Part shown: one piece after another, positions 9,426 to 39,584 of the stretch | Numbering within the stretch: position 1 is the first letter of the stretch | How the letters are laid out: each line of letters starts with the position of its first letter | Virus record (IMG/VR): IMGVR_UViG_3300042673_001139 | Span: 1-42,679 of that record | Reading direction: 5' to 3' (one strand) | Length of the DNA stretch: 42,679 bases | Source: a virus | The notes under the pieces: generated by a model | Seen by the model: only the letters and a program-made list of their open reading frames with translations | What the model was told of the DNA's origin: nothing | Databases searched by the model: none | Position numbers and translations under genes: made by a program

Positions 9426-9437
9426 GGATGTTCAGAC

Positions 9438-9463
9438 GTAAAAAAGCCCGCACGTGGCGGGCT
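9438..9463 (-). terminator. Terminator before the gp6-like connector gene
   Basis: Stem AGCCCGC/GCGGGCT (9445-9451 and 9457-9463), five-base loop, six T on the minus strand (9444-9439). Separates the inserted accessory virion genes from the connector genes. Confidence 0.75.
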
Positions 9464-9482
9464 GGTTGTGTGTGACGCTTGC

Positions 9483-25682: not shown

Positions 25683-25885
25683 GCGCTCACCACTTCCGAT
25701 TTCTCGCGCCACCAGCCAGCAGCCTTGGTCGGCCTGAGCGCCCAAGTAATCGAACGCGGCCTGTAGCCATCCACAAAACCGCGCCGGTATTCGTTGTCCG
25801 CGTCAGGCATGGCCCGAACGAATCCAACCTTGCGGTCACGGAATGCGGCTTTCTCGCCATCGCTGAAGCCTTGTTCGTAGTTCAT
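25679..25885 (-). CDS. Small protein behind the initiator gene (68 aa)
   Basis: MNYEQGFSDGEKAAFRDRKV..., charged N-terminus with aromatic residues, then GFVDGYRPRSITWALRPTKAAGWW. The repeated GFxDG pattern (GFSDG, GFVDG) is notable. ATGA overlaps on both sides. Unknown. Confidence 0.58.
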   Translation of the reverse strand: MNYEQGFSDGEKAAFRDRKVGFVRAMPDADNEYRRGFVDGYRPRSITWALRPTKAAGWWREKSEVVSA

Positions 25886-26754
25886 GCTGCCCCCACCAAT
25901 TTCGCCCTGATTTCAGCCGCCCTAGCGACCGCGCCAGCACCACTCACCGCCTGTGCCGCGTGTGCGGCCTGGGTCGCAAGCAAACGGGCGGTTTCGTCTG
26001 CTGCTTTCGATGGAACGGTGATGGGCGGGCCGGTGTCCTTGCGCTCACCCTTCAGGCGCTGACAGGTTGCAATGAGGTACTCGGTCGCCTCTAGTGGCTG
26101 CGCCTGAACCGAAGCTCGCACCGCATCCAAGGCAACCTCTTGCCCGTAGTCCTTCGTCAGCTTCGCGATGAAGCTCCCGCACTGAGCCTTCGGCATTCCG
26201 CGAAGCTCCAACAGGGACTTGCCAGCGGCGTAAAGCTCTTGTTTTTCATCCCTCGGGGCAGGCGGAACGCCCGAAGCTTTAGCTTCGGAACTAAGGGGTT
26301 CAGGGTTCAGGATTCGGGAATCAGGAATCAGTAATAGGGAATCAGCAGGATTGCCACCGTCTTTGCATGGTGCTTGCACCGTGCTTGCACCGTGCTTCTT
26401 TGGTGTTGGTGCGTGTTCAGCAATGTGCCCGTTACGATCTGGCAGGGTGCTTGCCTTTTCATCCTTGTGCGGGTTCTGGTGTTTGCTGAAGTTCACCACT
26501 TGGATAACGCGCACACCACCAGACTCATACCGGTCAATCACACCAATAGAGGCAAGCTCTTGCAGACAAGAGCCGCAATCAACATCGTCCGCAGGGAACA
26601 GCTCCATCTTGATTTGCTTTGGCCGATCCTCAAGGCGACCAGCGCGGTCTGCAATCGTCCACAAGCCGATGAAAAGAAGCCGCGCAGTCATTGACAGCTC
26701 GACCAAATCGGCGTTTCTGAAAAATCCGGGCTTGATGTTCCGCGCTCTAGCCAT
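25882..26754 (-). CDS. Phage replication initiator (O-like)
   Basis: 290 residues. N-terminus MARARNIKPGFFRNADLVELSMTARLLFIGLW... then LQELASIGVIDRY and VIQVVNFSKHQNPHKDEK: the winged-helix DNA-binding domain common in phage replisome organisers. A linker (about 105-165) is encoded by iteron-like repeats (LIPDSRILNPEPL). The helical C-terminus may contact host replication proteins. No helicase or loader gene was seen, so host DnaB/DnaC-type proteins are probably recruited. Confidence 0.72.
   Translation of the reverse strand: MARARNIKPGFFRNADLVELSMTARLLFIGLWTIADRAGRLEDRPKQIKMELFPADDVDCGSCLQELASIGVIDRYESGGVRVIQVVNFSKHQNPHKDEKASTLPDRNGHIAEHAPTPKKHGASTVQAPCKDGGNPADSLLLIPDSRILNPEPLSSEAKASGVPPAPRDEKQELYAAGKSLLELRGMPKAQCGSFIAKLTKDYGQEVALDAVRASVQAQPLEATEYLIATCQRLKGERKDTGPPITVPSKAADETARLLATQAAHAAQAVSGAGAVARAAEIRAKLVGAA
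26295..26352 (-). other. Putative replication origin: iteron-like repeats inside the initiator gene
   Basis: Short repeats on the plus strand (GGTTCAG twice, GATTCGG, GGAATCAG several times) spaced seven to eight bases, encoding LIPDSRILNPEPL on the minus strand. Lambda and many other phages keep their origin as iterons within the initiator gene at the linker. Function inferred. Confidence 0.5.
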
Positions 26755-27148: not shown

Positions 27149-27531
27149 GCCGCAAACCTCTCTGCCTGACTATCTTCAAGAACAGCAGGAAATTGCCAGC
27201 GTTGGCGCATCTTGATAACGCGCCGCATTTGCTCACTAAAAAGTTTCTCGGTAGAGCTGCCAAGAGCAACATCACTTAGAAGCGCCTCACGAATTGATTG
27301 CGCGTTGAGCCCGATAAGCACGGCATAAGCCTCAAAGTTCGAGCCACTTTTGAACAAAAACTCAACTGCACTTCTGGCAAGAGAATTGTTTTTTCTAAGC
27401 TGTAGTTCGTCTTTTGTTGGCTTTTCTGCCGCGTCTCTTATCGCCTGAACAATGATTGCCAAAACAAGATTCGCGCATCGTCTTGTTTCAATACTTGTGG
27501 TTTCTCGTGTAGATAAGAAATCGACGCTCAT
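27145..27531 (-). CDS. Early protein (128 aa, unknown)
   Basis: MSVDFLSTRETTSIETRRCANLVLAIIVQAIRDAAEKPTKDELQ..., helical, with LARSAVEFLFKSGSNFEAYAVL in the middle. Overlaps its neighbours by four bases. Family not recognised. Confidence 0.6.
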   Translation of the reverse strand: MSVDFLSTRETTSIETRRCANLVLAIIVQAIRDAAEKPTKDELQLRKNNSLARSAVEFLFKSGSNFEAYAVLIGLNAQSIREALLSDVALGSSTEKLFSEQMRRVIKMRQRWQFPAVLEDSQAERFAA

Positions 27532-27944
27532 GCAGCCTTCTCCAGTTCGTTTAATCGCTGTTTCAAAGCCGCCACTTCAGCCGCCCTGCTGTCACGCTGC
27601 ACAAGGTCGCAGCCCATCTGTTCAGCCAACCACTGAAGCGGCGCAAGGCTGTTGGTGGAGCGCATGAAGCGAACAAGGCGCTTTGCCCACTGCTCGGCCA
27701 CACCACGCATGAATCTGCTCATGTAGCCGCTGCTGATGTGGATTTCGTCGGCGATCTCTTGGTCTTCTTTGCCGCTATGCCGAACTGCGTCATTCAGGCA
27801 ACCGCTGAACGTGGCGCGGGAAACAACGTGTGGTGGCATGGGCTCAGGAAGCGCGACAGCAGACAGAAAAGGCATGGCAACTTGCGAGTGGTTTCCACCA
27901 CTTGCTTGCAGTTTCCATTCGGTTGCGGACACAGTTGAGGTCAT
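27528..27944 (-). CDS. HTH regulator in CII position
   Basis: 138 residues from ATG 27944. HTH-like part at about 55-90 (LNDAVRHSGKEDQEIADEIHISSGYMSRFMRG), then a helical tail ending in a leucine-rich coil (VAALKQRLNELEKAA). Second regulatory gene of the left early operon after the Cro-like gene, the place of CII in lambdoid phages. Role as activator or repressor not shown. Confidence 0.6.
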   Translation of the reverse strand: MTSTVSATEWKLQASGGNHSQVAMPFLSAVALPEPMPPHVVSRATFSGCLNDAVRHSGKEDQEIADEIHISSGYMSRFMRGVAEQWAKRLVRFMRSTNSLAPLQWLAEQMGCDLVQRDSRAAEVAALKQRLNELEKAA

Positions 27945-27965: not shown

Positions 27966-28148
27966 TCAGGAGTGGGCAGCCGCCGCAGTGCGGGCGCTTG
28001 TGCAACGTGCGCTAATGGCCTTGGCTGCGCAGTTCGTGGCAGCAGCTAAGGAGCGCAGGCTTTGAATAAAAAACACCACCGTGGCGATGGTGAAAGAGAT
28101 GCTGGCTTCGAGTCCGTAGCATCCCCAGGAGGTTTGGTTGTGGCTCAT
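27966..28148 (-). CDS. Small putative membrane protein behind cro (60 aa)
   Basis: Starts in ATGA overlap with the cro stop. One hydrophobic segment (ISFTIATVVFFI, about 17-29), Ala-rich end. The opposite strand also has a plausible small frame (27943-28065). Kept because of the overlap with cro, but uncertain. Confidence 0.38.
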   Translation of the reverse strand: MSHNQTSWGCYGLEASISFTIATVVFFIQSLRSLAAATNCAAKAISARCTSARTAAAAHS

Positions 28149-28339
28149 GGCTTCACCTCATCAGGGGTTAGAAGCTCTGGCGGAAGGTGTTGTCTTGCGA
28201 GTGCTGCAAGAACACGGTCAGAGATGCGCGGCGGCAGCAGTTCAGGCCACTTCCTTACAGCCTGATATGTCACGCCAAGCCGCTTTGCAGCTTCTGCAAC
28301 AGTCCCGCCTAGAAGTTCAATCGCTTGTTTTTTCAACAT
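28145..28339 (-). CDS. Cro-like repressor
   Basis: 64 residues: MLKKQAIELLGGTVAEAAKRLGVTYQAVRKWPELLPPRISDRVLAAL, the HTH pattern of lambdoid Cro proteins (recognition helix YQAVRKW). Divergent from the CI-like gene across a 67-base operator region. The ATG coincides with the predicted transcript start, so the mRNA may be leaderless. Should bind the AACTATRGTT operators. Confidence 0.82.
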   Translation of the reverse strand: MLKKQAIELLGGTVAEAAKRLGVTYQAVRKWPELLPPRISDRVLAALARQHLPPELLTPDEVKP

Positions 28340-28345
28340 GGCGAC

Positions 28346-28384
28346 ATTGAACCATAGTTCATCGCTGTGCGCAACTATAGTTTT
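28346..28384. promoter_or_regulatory. cro/cI operator-promoter region with two operators
   Basis: Operator A TGAACCATAGTTCA (28348-28361) and operator B AACTATAGTT (28373-28382), centres 23 bp apart. The cro promoter on the minus strand: TTGCGC (28374-28369), 17 bases, TTCAAT (28351-28346). For the CI-like gene, TATAGT (28376-28381) within operator B is a fair -10 without a good -35, with start near 28388. Binding would block cro and could modulate cI. Confidence 0.72.
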
Positions 28385-28406
28385 TTGACATCGTTACGTT
28401 GAGACG

Positions 28407-28799
28407 ATGGAAACGCAAAAAAACCCGACTGAGTATTGGTCTCGACTTGAATCAGCCATGAAGGCGCGCAGCGTCTCGCTTGCTGACTTAGCGAAGCATT
28501 TAGGGCTAACGATTCAAGCCGTAAGAAAGCTGCCAGACGGCAAAACAAAGGAGTTGTCGGCGACCAACAACGCCAAAGCGGCGAAGTTTTTGGGGGTTGA
28601 CCCAAGCTGGCTAGCTATAGGTGAGGCGTCTTCCTGGCCGTTCTCTACAGACATATCAAGATTCGAGGCGCTTACAGAGAGACAGAAAGGAATGGTTCAA
28701 CAGGCTATTGAACAAGTTTTGGAAAAGATCGAGGCCTCAGACCTTGCGACAGAAGACAAAAACCGCATACAAACATCCAGACAAACGCCCAACTTTTGA
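28407..28799 (+). CDS. CI-like repressor without peptidase domain
   Basis: 130 residues. HTH at about 20-50 (SVSLADLAKHLGLTIQAVRKLPDGKTKEL), where LTIQAVRK parallels the YQAVRK of the Cro-like protein. Then FLGVDPSWLAIG, typical of phage repressors just before the linker, and a helical tail (RQKGMVQQAIEQVLEKIEASDL). A normal CI adds an S24 self-cleaving domain of about 100 residues; here it is missing without a sign of frameshift in the sequence. Confidence 0.78.
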   Translation: METQKNPTEYWSRLESAMKARSVSLADLAKHLGLTIQAVRKLPDGKTKELSATNNAKAAKFLGVDPSWLAIGEASSWPFSTDISRFEALTERQKGMVQQAIEQVLEKIEASDLATEDKNRIQTSRQTPNF

Positions 28800-28911
28800 A
28801 TCTTCCAAAATATCCACAATTGGCAAATACCCCATTTAAGGGGGTTGCATCGAAGGTTAAAGTAGAGTGCATTAGACGGACATGGGGTCTGTTTTGATGA
28901 AAAGGAACACT

Positions 28912-29328
28912 GTGAAAAAAATTGTTGTGTCTGCCATTTGCTTGGCAATTGTGCTATCTGGCTGTGCAACAGCATCTAAGGACGTTGCCCCGGCTTACGT
29001 TTCGCCAATGCAATATCAGTCTTTTGACTGCGAACAGCTTGCCGCAGAAGCCCAGCGCATACAAGTACGAACAGCACAACTCGGTGGCAGGCTTGATGAA
29101 GCCTCATCCAACGACAAAGCGCTAATGGGCGTCGGAATGATCTTGTTTTGGCCCGCCCTTTTTGCTCTTGGTGGCACGAAGCAGCAGGAGGCGGAGTACG
29201 CCAGATTGAAGGGTGAATATGACGCGATTCAGCAAGCCGCTGTAGCCAAAAAATGCACCATTGCGCCGCCACAACAACCAACGCCAGCAGCTAAACCGCC
29301 CGAGGTGGCGGCATCTTCACCAAGTTAA
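28912..29328 (+). CDS. Small lipoprotein, probable lysogenic conversion gene
   Basis: 138 residues from GTG 28912 (AAGGA five bases upstream; ATG 28897 possible). Signal peptide MKKIVVSAICLAIVLSGC with lipobox LSGC, then YVSPMQYQSFDCEQLAAEAQRI, a pattern frequent in small proteobacterial lipoproteins, a hydrophobic FWPALFALGG segment and a Pro/Ala-rich end. Downstream of the CI-like gene on the same strand and closed by a terminator, so it can be expressed in lysogens. Could block superinfection; inference. Confidence 0.72.
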   Translation: MKKIVVSAICLAIVLSGCATASKDVAPAYVSPMQYQSFDCEQLAAEAQRIQVRTAQLGGRLDEASSNDKALMGVGMILFWPALFALGGTKQQEAEYARLKGEYDAIQQAAVAKKCTIAPPQQPTPAAKPPEVAASSPS

Positions 29329-29346
29329 CCAGCACTCTCCCCCAAC

Positions 29347-29370
29347 AGCCCGCCGCGTGCGGGCTTTTTT
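29347..29370 (+). terminator. Terminator after cI-lipoprotein unit
   Basis: Stem AGCCCGC/GCGGGCT (29347-29353 and 29359-29365), five-base loop, six T on the plus strand. Separates the lysogeny unit from the right early promoter. Confidence 0.85.
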
Positions 29371-29423
29371 ACGCCCGCTCACCGCTTACTGACCGAGGAG
29401 TCAGAAATAGCAAATCTTTTTTA

Positions 29424-29462
29424 TGAACTATGGTTGCGTCTTTGTATGAACTATGGTTCAAT
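29424..29462 (+). promoter_or_regulatory. Right early promoter with two operators
   Basis: Operator C AACTATGGTT (29426-29435) and operator D TGAACTATGGTTCA (29447-29460), the latter the exact reverse complement of operator A; centres again 23 bp apart. Promoter: TTGCGT (29434-29439), 17 bases, TTCAAT (29457-29462), start near 29469. The region aligns with the cro promoter over its whole length, so it is a second phage-repressor target like lambda OL/pL. Confidence 0.75.
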
Positions 29463-29497
29463 ATCCCCATCGCTTCCAACAAGCCAGGAGAGACAAA

Positions 29498-29812
29498 GTG
29501 AGCAACGCAGCAAGAGTCAGCCCCTTCCCAAAAGCAGCCAAGAAGCGCAGCGAGCCAGTCGATGCATCAATGCTGCGTGTTGAGCATAACCAGCCATTGC
29601 CAACTGGTGTGCGCTTGGTCAAGTCGAAATACGACGAACTGTTTTCGCAGCTCAAGGCTGGTTCGTGTGTGGTGTGCGAGTCAGACGAAATCAACCGCAT
29701 CAGCAACGCGCTGCGCAAGTACATCGCCACCCGCAAGAAGCCTTTCATGGTGCGTGCAGTCACGCGCTGTGAAGACGGGCATGGCCGGGTTTGGGCATTA
29801 GCTAAGAAGTAA
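29498..29812 (+). CDS. First right early gene (104 aa, unknown)
   Basis: Starts at GTG 29498 with AGGAG seven bases upstream, about 29 bases behind the predicted transcript start; the longer frame begins before it. Basic, with one CxxxC-like site (CVVCESDE) and KKPFMVRAVTRCEDGHGRVWAL at the end. First gene after the operator, a spot where early regulators or anti-host factors occur. Not recognised. Confidence 0.6.
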   Translation: MSNAARVSPFPKAAKKRSEPVDASMLRVEHNQPLPTGVRLVKSKYDELFSQLKAGSCVVCESDEINRISNALRKYIATRKKPFMVRAVTRCEDGHGRVWALAKK

Positions 29813-31895: not shown

Positions 31896-32050
31896 ACACA
31901 ACCCTACTACGCATGGCCCGCCGTCACTTCAACAGTGATCTTGTGCCACCGAGCACAAATCGCCACAACAGGTTGGCATGGGCGCGAATGATTCGGCTGC
32001 TGGGGCCTAACTGGAAGGCGCTTCCGAAACAGAAGGAACAGATGCAATGA
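31892..32050 (+). CDS. Small basic protein before recT (52 aa)
   Basis: MNTTLLRMARRHFNSDLVPP..., basic and helical (RHNRLAWARMIRLLGPNWKAL). Starts in ATGA overlap and ends in ATGA overlap with recT. Could be a RecT-associated factor; no direct evidence. Confidence 0.58.
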   Translation: MNTTLLRMARRHFNSDLVPPSTNRHNRLAWARMIRLLGPNWKALPKQKEQMQ

Positions 32051-33018
32051 GCAACGCACTACAGATCATTACGGGCGACATCATGGGCGTGAAAGACACG
32101 TTCAATTCGATAGCGCAGAACACACTGAGCTTTGAGCGTGAGGCCGGGTTTGCAATTCAGTTGCTGATGTCGAACGACTACGCGATGAAGATCGCCACTC
32201 AGAACCGGCAATCAGTCATCAATGCGGTGACAAACATTGCGGCCATTGGGATCAGCCTGAACCCGGCGAAGAAGCAGGCGTATCTGGTGCCGCGTGATGG
32301 CCGCATCTGCCTGGACATTAGCTATATGGGCTTGCTCGACCTGGCGATTCAGTCGGGTTCACTCATGTGGGGGCAGGCAGAACTTGTTTACCAGCAAGAC
32401 AGCTTCATGCTGAACGGCTTTGACAAGCCGCCCACTCATGGCCGCAATCCATTCTCTCCAGATCGAGGCGAGATTGTCGGCGCTTACGTTGTCGTGAAAA
32501 CAAAGGACGGCGACTACCTGACCGCCTGCATGAGCATCCAAGAGGTTTACGACATACGCAACCGCTCAAGCGCATGGAAGGCATGGGAGAAGGACAAGCG
32601 CAAATGCCCGTGGGTGACAGACGAAGGCGAGATGGTCAAGAAGACCGTTATCAAACGCGCCTACAAGACATGGCCGAAGACAGACCGCCTTGATGCTGCT
32701 GTTCACTACCTCAACACAGAGGGCGGCGAAGGGCTAGCTGACATAGCGGCCAATGAGACATACGCCAAAGGCCCCGGTGTCATCAAAGGCACCGACGGGA
32801 TGCTTGAGGCTATGTCCATCGAAGACCAGAACTACATGCGAGAACTGGCTGAAGAAATGAAGATTGAGTTCACGCAAGAAAACGGGCCGAAACTGGTTTT
32901 CGACAAGTACACGAACCAGAACTTTGACAACGATCAGCGTGTCGCCTTCTGGTCGCTGCTGCCGTCGAACATTCGTTCATCAATTAAGAAACTTGCAAAA
33001 GAGAAGGAAGCAGCGTAA
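32047..33018 (+). CDS. recT: RecT-family single-strand annealing protein
   Basis: 323 residues. [49 protein letters not shown] is the RecT core signature; further on [18 protein letters not shown] and [16 protein letters not shown] match. Anneals single-stranded ends for phage recombination and circularisation. Followed directly by SSB (shared base 33018). No exonuclease partner was recognised beside it. Confidence 0.94.
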
Positions 33019-33458
33019 TGGCATCTGTGAACAAAACCATTCTTATAGGCAATGTCGGAAAAGACCCGGAGGTGCGCTACACCCCCAGCGGGTCAGCAAT
33101 CTGCAACATCAGCGTTGCCACCACTCGCTCATGGAAAGACAAAACCAGTGGCGAGAAGCAAGAAGAAACCGAGTGGCATCGGTGCGTGTTCTACGACCGC
33201 TTGGCCGAAGTTGTTGGCGAATATGTGAAGCGCGGGCGACCAATCTACATCGAAGGCCGACTCAAGACGCGCAAGTGGCAAAACAAAGAGGGGCAAGACG
33301 TTTACACCACCGAAATCATCGCCCATGAGATGCAAATGCTTGGTGGCCGCGACGATGCTCAACAGTCAGCCCGCCCTGCACCGGCTGCTGCGCCTAAGGC
33401 TGCGCCAGCGAAGGCATCGACGGGGTTTGACGAAATGGACGATGACATCCCGTTCTAG
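33018..33458 (+). CDS. ssb: Single-stranded DNA-binding protein
   Basis: 146 residues: [20 protein letters not shown], the OB-fold of bacterial SSB (1-110), an Ala/Pro-rich linker and the acidic tail [10 protein letters not shown] that recruits host replication and repair proteins. Encoded just after recT, so the two likely act together on single-stranded DNA. Confidence 0.96.
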
Positions 33459-38429: not shown

Positions 38430-38637
38430 CGAGGCAAACCTAGTTGACACCGCACAGATCGCAGCGATGGCAAAGGTCACTCGAAAACAGGTAACGAACC
38501 GATGGACGAAGCGGCCAGACTTTCCAGAGCCGGTTCAAAACGCGACGCAGAAGACACGCCGCTGGAACATCAATGACGTGCGCGAGTGGCTGCGTCAGCC
38601 CAGACGGGCCGCTATCTCTTCCTCGGTTGTTCGGTAG
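38410..38637 (+). CDS. Excisionase / AlpA-like DNA-binding protein
   Basis: 75 residues from ATG 38410 (GGAG seven bases upstream). LVDTAQIAAMAKVTRKQVTNRWTKRPDFPEPVQN..., then RRWNINDVREWLRQ: the winged-helix MerR/AlpA pattern of phage excisionases. Last gene of the right early operon; its final 43 bases overlap the end of the convergent integrase. Would bend attP DNA for excision and may act as regulator. Confidence 0.8.
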   Translation: MHSAEIDEANLVDTAQIAAMAKVTRKQVTNRWTKRPDFPEPVQNATQKTRRWNINDVREWLRQPRRAAISSSVVR

Positions 38638-39584
38638 TAAACCGTCAACAGAATGCGGAGGTCTTTGTGCCCACTGATTCGCGCCAGCTCCATTACGCCC
38701 ACCTTTTTGCTGAACAGTGTCAGTGCATAGGCGCGGGCATCGTGGAAGTGGAGGTCTTCGATGAGCAATGAATCACGGGCTCGCCGAAATATAACGTCTA
38801 GGGATTCGCTTGATATGGTGAAGCCATTGAACCCCTTGAGCAGCCGCAGCGCATGCTTAGAAAGCGGGATTTTGCGGGGCTTGCCGGTGCGGTATTGCAT
38901 CTTGTGCTTGACCGTGGCGACTGAACCGGTGATGACGGACGGGCCAAGCTGCAAAACCTCACCCGCCCGCATGCCGGTGCGCAGGGAAAGCATGAAGGCA
39001 AATGCCACCTCTTCTTGCTTGGACTTTGGAATCCGCCCGGTCTTGAACCCAAGCCAGCGAACAATGCGTCGAATCTCGCTGATGGTTGGCAATCGTTCGC
39101 GGGATGGGTTGTCGCCTGGGGCTTGCAGGCCCTTGAATGGGGATGATGGAGCCCATTGCCATTCTTCAACGGCTTTGGTGAAGACGTGCGCAAGCAGGTT
39201 GATGTCGCGCTGCACTGAGCCCTTGCTGACTTTTGCTAGTCGGGCATCACGCCACGCCGCCAAGTCTGATGTGGACACTTCCACAAGCTGCTTGCCAGCC
39301 AGAGCCGGGAAGTCTCGCTTGAACGCCGCCATGCGTAGCAGTTCAAAGCGCTCGCCAGCCTTGCCGCTGCTCACATCTAGAGCGTACTTGTCGAGAGTTT
39401 CGGAAAACGTCTTTCTCGGGAATGCGCCGTTCTTCTCGGACAGAATTTCGGCCTCTTCCTGCAATGCCCAAAGTTGGGCCGCAGTCTTGGTGTCGAAGGA
39501 CGCAGACCTGCGCACGCCGTTGCGCTCGACTTCGGCCCGCCACTTGTTGCCCTGCTTCCTGAGATACGCCACGACTGCTCCCAT
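38595..39584 (-). CDS. int: Tyrosine recombinase integrase
   Basis: 329 residues. N-terminal arm-binding domain (1-60), core-binding domain (about 65-155), catalytic domain with Arg206 (LRTGMRAGE), His281 and Arg284 (FHDARAYAL), His306 (SGHKDL) and nucleophile Tyr317 (TVYYR). The common HDLRH is here HDARA. Integrates the phage at a bacterial attB; the attP-like tRNA fragment lies just upstream at 39739-39760. 3' end overlaps the Xis-like gene. Confidence 0.95.
   Translation of the reverse strand: MGAVVAYLRKQGNKWRAEVERNGVRRSASFDTKTAAQLWALQEEAEILSEKNGAFPRKTFSETLDKYALDVSSGKAGERFELLRMAAFKRDFPALAGKQLVEVSTSDLAAWRDARLAKVSKGSVQRDINLLAHVFTKAVEEWQWAPSSPFKGLQAPGDNPSRERLPTISEIRRIVRWLGFKTGRIPKSKQEEVAFAFMLSLRTGMRAGEVLQLGPSVITGSVATVKHKMQYRTGKPRKIPLSKHALRLLKGFNGFTISSESLDVIFRRARDSLLIEDLHFHDARAYALTLFSKKVGVMELARISGHKDLRILLTVYYRTTEEEIAARLG

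Follow-up and report, generated by a model that had tools for sequence, protein, structure and literature searches.

Matched operator pairs at both early promoters of an uncultured temperate phage probably form a lambda-type OR/OL control region

The window analysed here is the 42,679-base record of a virus. It very probably comes from an uncultured temperate phage whose lysis-lysogeny switch is of the lambda type, with OR/OL control, and on the sequence evidence this reading is given a probability of about 0.9. Four near-identical palindromes with the consensus GAACYATRGTTC form two pairs. One pair is located in the intergenic region shared by the divergent cI and cro genes, and the other early promoter has a second operator set. 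What can be read directly from the window and its relatives is where the sites lie and in which register, how they are conserved, and how they covary with both repressor proteins. The switch itself is an ordinary, well-formed one of lambda type with a reduced operator set; the added value lies in a co-varying series of relatives and in a branch of them devoid of cI. The genes and elements around the switch are as follows.

25882–26754, minus strand: replication initiation protein, leftward early operon (PHROG 12556, E 1e-54)
27528–27944, minus strand: weak CII-type regulator, encoded second in the leftward early operon (PHROG 2345, E 2e-7; PHROG 101, CII-like, E 0.04)
28145–28339, minus strand: cro, 64-aa P22-Cro-like repressor with recognition helix VTYQAVRKW; about 80 homologous loci
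28407–28799, plus strand: cI-like repressor, 130 aa, HTH only, recognition helix LTIQAVRKL
28903–29328, plus strand: small ORF resembling a lipoprotein gene, located after cI and before the right promoter (PHROG 13472, unknown function)
29347–29370, plus strand: terminator-like hairpin with a T run, separating the cI unit from the right early promoter
32047–33018, plus strand: RecT annealing protein, rightward early operon (Pfam RecT, E 1e-27)
33018–33458, plus strand: SSB, rightward early operon (Pfam SSB, E 8e-41)
38595–39584, minus strand: integrase, in keeping with a temperate phage (PHROG 1, E 4e-42)

Cro, the CII-type gene, and replication are arranged leftward, while cI is arranged rightward and is followed by RecT and SSB behind the second operator pair. 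Except for the reversed map, this is how a lambdoid phage arranges its genes. Cro matches Pfam P22_Cro with E 8e-7 and 29.2 bits, just below the curated cut-off of 30.2, and it has a weak match to the solved P22 Cro 1rzs. CI matches HTH_26 above the cut-off, with the 434 repressor as the best solved match. At the position of the lipoprotein-like ORF, the relatives have 0.15–3.8 kb of varied DNA, which is likely an accessory-gene slot. The terminator-like sequence (29346–29373) has a 28-base inverted copy, 96% identical, at 9437–9464.

The four operators, placed in a common 12-mer register, and the two predicted early promoters are listed below. Scores and ranks are those of a weight matrix built from 166 sites of relatives, with the window excluded.

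28349–28360, no strand: operator A (OR1-like), GAACCATAGTTC, sharing bases with the cro promoter −10; rank 2 with a matrix score of 19.1
28372–28383, no strand: operator B (OR2-like), CAACTATAGTTT, sharing bases with the cro promoter −35; rank 4 with a matrix score of 14.1
29425–29436, no strand: operator C (OL2-like), GAACTATGGTTG, overlapping the −35 of the right early promoter; matrix rank 3
29448–29459, no strand: operator D (OL1-like), GAACTATGGTTC, overlapping the −10 of the right early promoter; matrix rank 1
28346–28374, minus strand: predicted cro promoter (pR equivalent), TTGCGC (28374–28369), 17 bases, TTCAAT (28351–28346); predicted start on the cro ATG
29434–29462, plus strand: predicted right early promoter (pL equivalent), TTGCGT (29434–29439), 17 bases, TTCAAT (29457–29462)

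An earlier sequence-only reading of this DNA had located the operators correctly to within 1–2 bases. It had described A as the exact reverse complement of D, which holds over 17 bp (28346–28362 and 29446–29462) within 25-bp arms that are 92% complementary, and it had given both pairs a spacing of 23 bp, which is exact for A/B as well as for C/D. The pattern TTGCGY-17-TTCAAT was also found at both promoters as it had been described. The second operator, however, is not wholly inside the 17-bp spacer, because A and D run into the −10; their last bases are the start of this hexamer, and the last bases of B and C are the start of the −35.

By chance, the window should contain the exact paired pattern 2.8e-7 times; it was observed twice. 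A motif-free search for two equally spaced palindrome pairs, with reverse complements allowed, returned this quartet alone, and none of 100 shuffles has one. When the relatives-only matrix was run across all 42.7 kb, A–D took ranks 1–4. Operator B is weaker than the other three and alone would not stand out, as shuffled maxima average 13.5 and reach 17.8. Neither early promoter was detected in a sigma-70 consensus scan of the window, because the hexamers are non-consensus.

Much stronger evidence for the operator pairs than the window alone comes from the relatives. No match was obtained in a nucleotide search against cultured phages, and CI as a query in viral contigs gave one weak relative only; Cro was therefore chosen as the search anchor, and the relatives were collected with Cro and then by Cro alignment. 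About 80 viral loci and six loci in bacterial genomes were found, with the named relatives mostly from Burkholderiales (Ramlibacter, Variovorax, Aquincola, Aquabacterium). One 5-kb contig (L037) in this otherwise Burkholderiales-associated phage group is binned as a Planctomycetota MAG, probably a binning error. In 81 distinct loci, the cro-proximal palindrome begins 19–23 nt 5' of the ATG, and when this site was compared with upstream sequence at offsets of 12 to 41, peaks appeared only at 23 bp (46/81) and 24 bp (17/81). A second, inverted pair of the locus's own motif was found upstream in 55 of 78 loci; at the same score, none appeared in 75 downstream flanks or in 78 shuffles. For the remaining loci, the distal pair was judged by reading the sequences; a regex search gave almost nothing.

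In the sequences compared, the operator, the Cro recognition helix, and the CI recognition helix change together. Loci with AAC..GTT operators have a Cro helix of the YQAV.KW type, with K before W in 47 of 49, and a CI helix ending in K in all 42 that are readable. Loci with AATCATGATT (AAT class) have Cro ending in QW in 7/7 and K before W in 0/7. R in CI occurs in 0/42 loci of the AAC class versus 6/7 of the AAT class, the seventh (L055) being without cI at this place. Other Cro helices, and CI helices mostly ending in Q, accompany (T/A)AG..CT(A/T) operators; the Cro Y is present in 54/56 AAC/AAT-class loci versus 1/22 of the AAG/TAG class. Fisher values for the association of helix and operator are extreme but ignore kinship, and a tree computed without the helix offers only four well-supported independent pairs, of which an average of 3.8 agree with the expectation and none contradicts it (p = 0.125). 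The clearest single case is the window versus L043 (starred fork), which has the closest Cro to that of the window but the helix ISVSAVSQW and the operator TAAAGCGTGCTAA. The window Cro and CI, with VTYQAVRKW and LTIQAVRKL, fit the window's own AAC class. Joint covariation of both helices with the operator argues indirectly for an operator specificity shared by CI and Cro. With about 80 loci and at least three operator classes, the helices of two repressor families and their shared sites are readable side by side, and such a natural covariation series makes a phage-repressor specificity code directly testable. If specificity follows the helix, a QW-helix Cro is expected on GAATCATGATTC and not on GAACTATGGTTC, and a KW-helix Cro the reverse.

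From this arrangement we infer which sites are occupied, that the promoters are repressed, where transcription starts, and how CI and Cro share the work. Cro and the CI-like repressor, with the matching helices YQAVRK and IQAVRK, would both bind GAACYATRGTTC sites as dimers. At each predicted early promoter, the outer operator holds the −35 and the inner one the −10, in the same register; since hexamers lie in both operators, a repressor on either site is proposed to block RNA polymerase. In a lysogen, CI would silence both early operons, and during lytic growth, Cro made from a leaderless mRNA would turn down both of them and regulate its own gene. The earlier proposal that one repressor serves both early operons through an OR/OL with two sites each is supported by the comparative evidence, with a putative assignment of proteins to sites.

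In a lambda-type switch, CI and Cro occupy the operators in opposite order. Lambda CI loops DNA between OR and OL, and its oligomerisation is carried by the C-terminal S24 domain. The same OR/OL control with CI additionally looping the two pairs together seems unlikely here: two CI-site pairs about 1.1 kb apart and the lambda precedent suit it, but the window CI is without this domain, and the distance between the pairs in the relatives ranges from 152 to 3813 bp (median 1300) without helical phasing. In favour of a loop, PaaR2 of CP-933P octamerises in solution (PMC8630535). Looping over 1.1 kb had also been suggested from the window; such variable and unphased distances remove its comparative support and leave a loop in this particular phage a small chance.

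No third OR or OL site was found in the window by the relatives-based weight matrix. Many AAC-class relatives have such a site 32–34 bp from OR2, over the cI start codon, and "simplified", as this OR/OL had been called, is apt for two sites each. OR3 at the cI promoter is present in lambda itself and not in every lambda-type member. Likewise, an S24 domain with RecA-dependent self-cleavage is typical of lambda-type CI and not universal. No S24 peptidase was detected in the record, the window CI included, while S24 is present in 17 of 20 cI-bearing relatives tested. RecA-driven cleavage of CI is therefore unlikely in this phage, and induction must use another route. A short CI without S24 is likewise present in L101 and L115. 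Activation of cI from OR2 in the lambda style was considered and is unlikely, as the centres of B and A lie about 30 bp and about 53 bp, respectively, ahead of the predicted start of cI, and not at −42.

Less probable than looping is that Cro binds only some of the sites, such as one on the cI side, and that the pairs serve CI alone. Cro of phiKO2 binds only OR3 and Cro of PY54 one site despite lambda-like layouts, and Cro thus need not bind all sites here (PMC4997575, PMC4488713). The window phage, however, has no recognisable OR3, 54/56 and 21/22 loci have the operator class that goes with their Cro recognition helix, and in relatives without cI the cro promoter, and often the other early promoter too, still has operators. 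In L037, L047/L048, L055, L057, L071/L079, L089, L105, and L116, no cI is located between the divergent promoters, which are less than about 200 bp apart. These eight distinct loci still have sites, clearly kept at both promoters in L037, L047/48, L089, and L116, and fewer or more degenerate in L055, L057, L071/79, and L105. As loci without cI keep operators, Cro is the likely constant ligand.

An integrase was identified in 0/9 cI-less virus records versus 17/20 cI-bearing ones, where absence is not proof since the records may be fragments; among records of at least 18 kb, the counts are 0/5 (two of the five being near-identical) versus 17/19. S24 was found in none of the nine cI-less virus records, which may be fragments. 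On the simplest reading, these relatives are likely lytic descendants whose Cro continues to depend on its operators, and they offer a way to see the role of Cro with no lysogeny left to prevent. A wider proposal stands at about even odds: in this uncharacterised Burkholderiales-associated group, cI and integrase would have been lost repeatedly with operators kept for Cro alone as a regulator of the lytic cycle, the specificities of Cro, CI, and operator would switch together, and the leaderless cro mRNA would keep Cro low. No precedent for cI-less lytic relatives retaining cro operators was found in the literature searched, which is not proof that none exists.

The 23-bp spacing itself seems to follow from the promoters. 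In both pairs, the last bases of the outer site are TTG and open the −35, those of the inner site are TTC and open the −10, and the two hexamers begin at an identical operator position. From this alignment, the spacing would be hexamer length plus spacer (6 + 17), and the "same geometry" noted earlier at both promoters would come from hexamers embedded in the same operator register. The asymmetry of the outer site (GGTTG, not GGTTC) would be due to the −35. In the relatives, TTG is present at the −35 of 61/81 cro promoters and 50/55 distal promoters, and the −10 is most often TTCAAT; the 61 cro promoters with TTG have hexamers spaced by 17 in 40 cases and by 18 in 16. Because the sites overlap promoter hexamers, a part of their conservation is promoter constraint, but the view that the palindromes are host regulator sites or plain promoter sequence and not phage operators is already largely refuted and keeps hardly any probability, as the left half of the palindrome lies outside the hexamers yet covaries with the Cro and CI helices, and palindromes differ among relatives with promoter geometry unchanged.

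Among characterised systems, lambda, CP-933P, and the N15 group come closest. Operators at lambda pR are spaced by about 23–24 bp. Lambda and the window phage have in common divergent cI and cro, operators inside both early promoters, the spacing of about 23–24 bp at pR, and recombination genes behind one promoter with replication genes behind the other. They differ in the number of sites per promoter (three in lambda, two here), in the P22-like Cro and the CI without an S24 cleavage/oligomerisation domain, and in cro, which has a leader in lambda and appears leaderless in the window. In the cryptic prophage CP-933P (PaaR2/YdaS/YdaT), the CI analogue is leaderless by 5' RACE, pL has the same −35 and −10 as pR and related operators, and both repressors were shown to act on pR and pL (PMC8630535). 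Its immunity region resembles the window in the leaderless CI analogue (predicted in the window) and the matching pL/pR hexamers, but has three operators and additional repeats per region, a different operator sequence with a GTTTAGTAA half, and a toxin-antitoxin operon behind cI. The immB regions of N15/phiKO2 have three OR and two OL sites, and the cI and cro mRNAs of PY54 were both shown to be leaderless (PMC4488713, PMC4997575). The telomere phages N15, phiKO2, and PY54 differ from the window in T-A-N10-T-A operators and an OL at a plasmid replication gene, and phiKO2 and PY54 also in the restriction of Cro to OR3. Pseudomonas phage vB_PaeS-D14O (L121:2900-3004) is the closest cultured phage with a recognisably related Cro. 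It shares paired CAAGCATGCTTG sites 23 bp apart and TTGCTT-17-TTGAAT, but its Cro is 53% identical over just 36 residues, its CI has 277 aa, and its cro has a leader with a Shine-Dalgarno (SD) sequence.

The predicted cro −10 of the window ends six bases 5' of the ATG. An SD-like tetramer upstream of cro was found in 0/81 loci, versus 6 in shuffled controls. Distal promoters, by contrast, are followed by an SD and a start codon in 43/55 cases, and the right early promoter of the window has a leader with AGGAG and then a GTG start at 29498. Among relatives with the cI start inside OR3, an SD is present in 1/34, and the commonest end position of the best −10 is 7 nt 5' of the ATG. Judged by these spacings and SD counts, cro, and usually cI, looks leaderless across the group. 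The window cI is a candidate leaderless gene, predicted from the following element.

28395–28400, plus strand: TACGTT, a weak candidate −10 for cI transcription, 6 nt 5' of the cI ATG

Lambda and CP-933P also have a leaderless cI, and in PY54 both cI and cro are leaderless (PMC8630535, PMC4488713), so the leaderless start is a shared trait and not a new one.

A search for a conserved SD-sequestering hairpin in the right-promoter leader gave no more than a weak overall excess of structure. At the start of the right-promoter transcript (window 29462–29500 and the same place in relatives), CCATCGC is conserved. A short hairpin at a fixed position was seen in about 15 of 52 loci; it is of boxB-like size, but no boxA was seen. 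Its stems differ among the loci (GCGGC/GCCGC, GCCTC/GAGGC, GGCAC/GTGCC), and the window leader has only GCTT/AAGC at this position.
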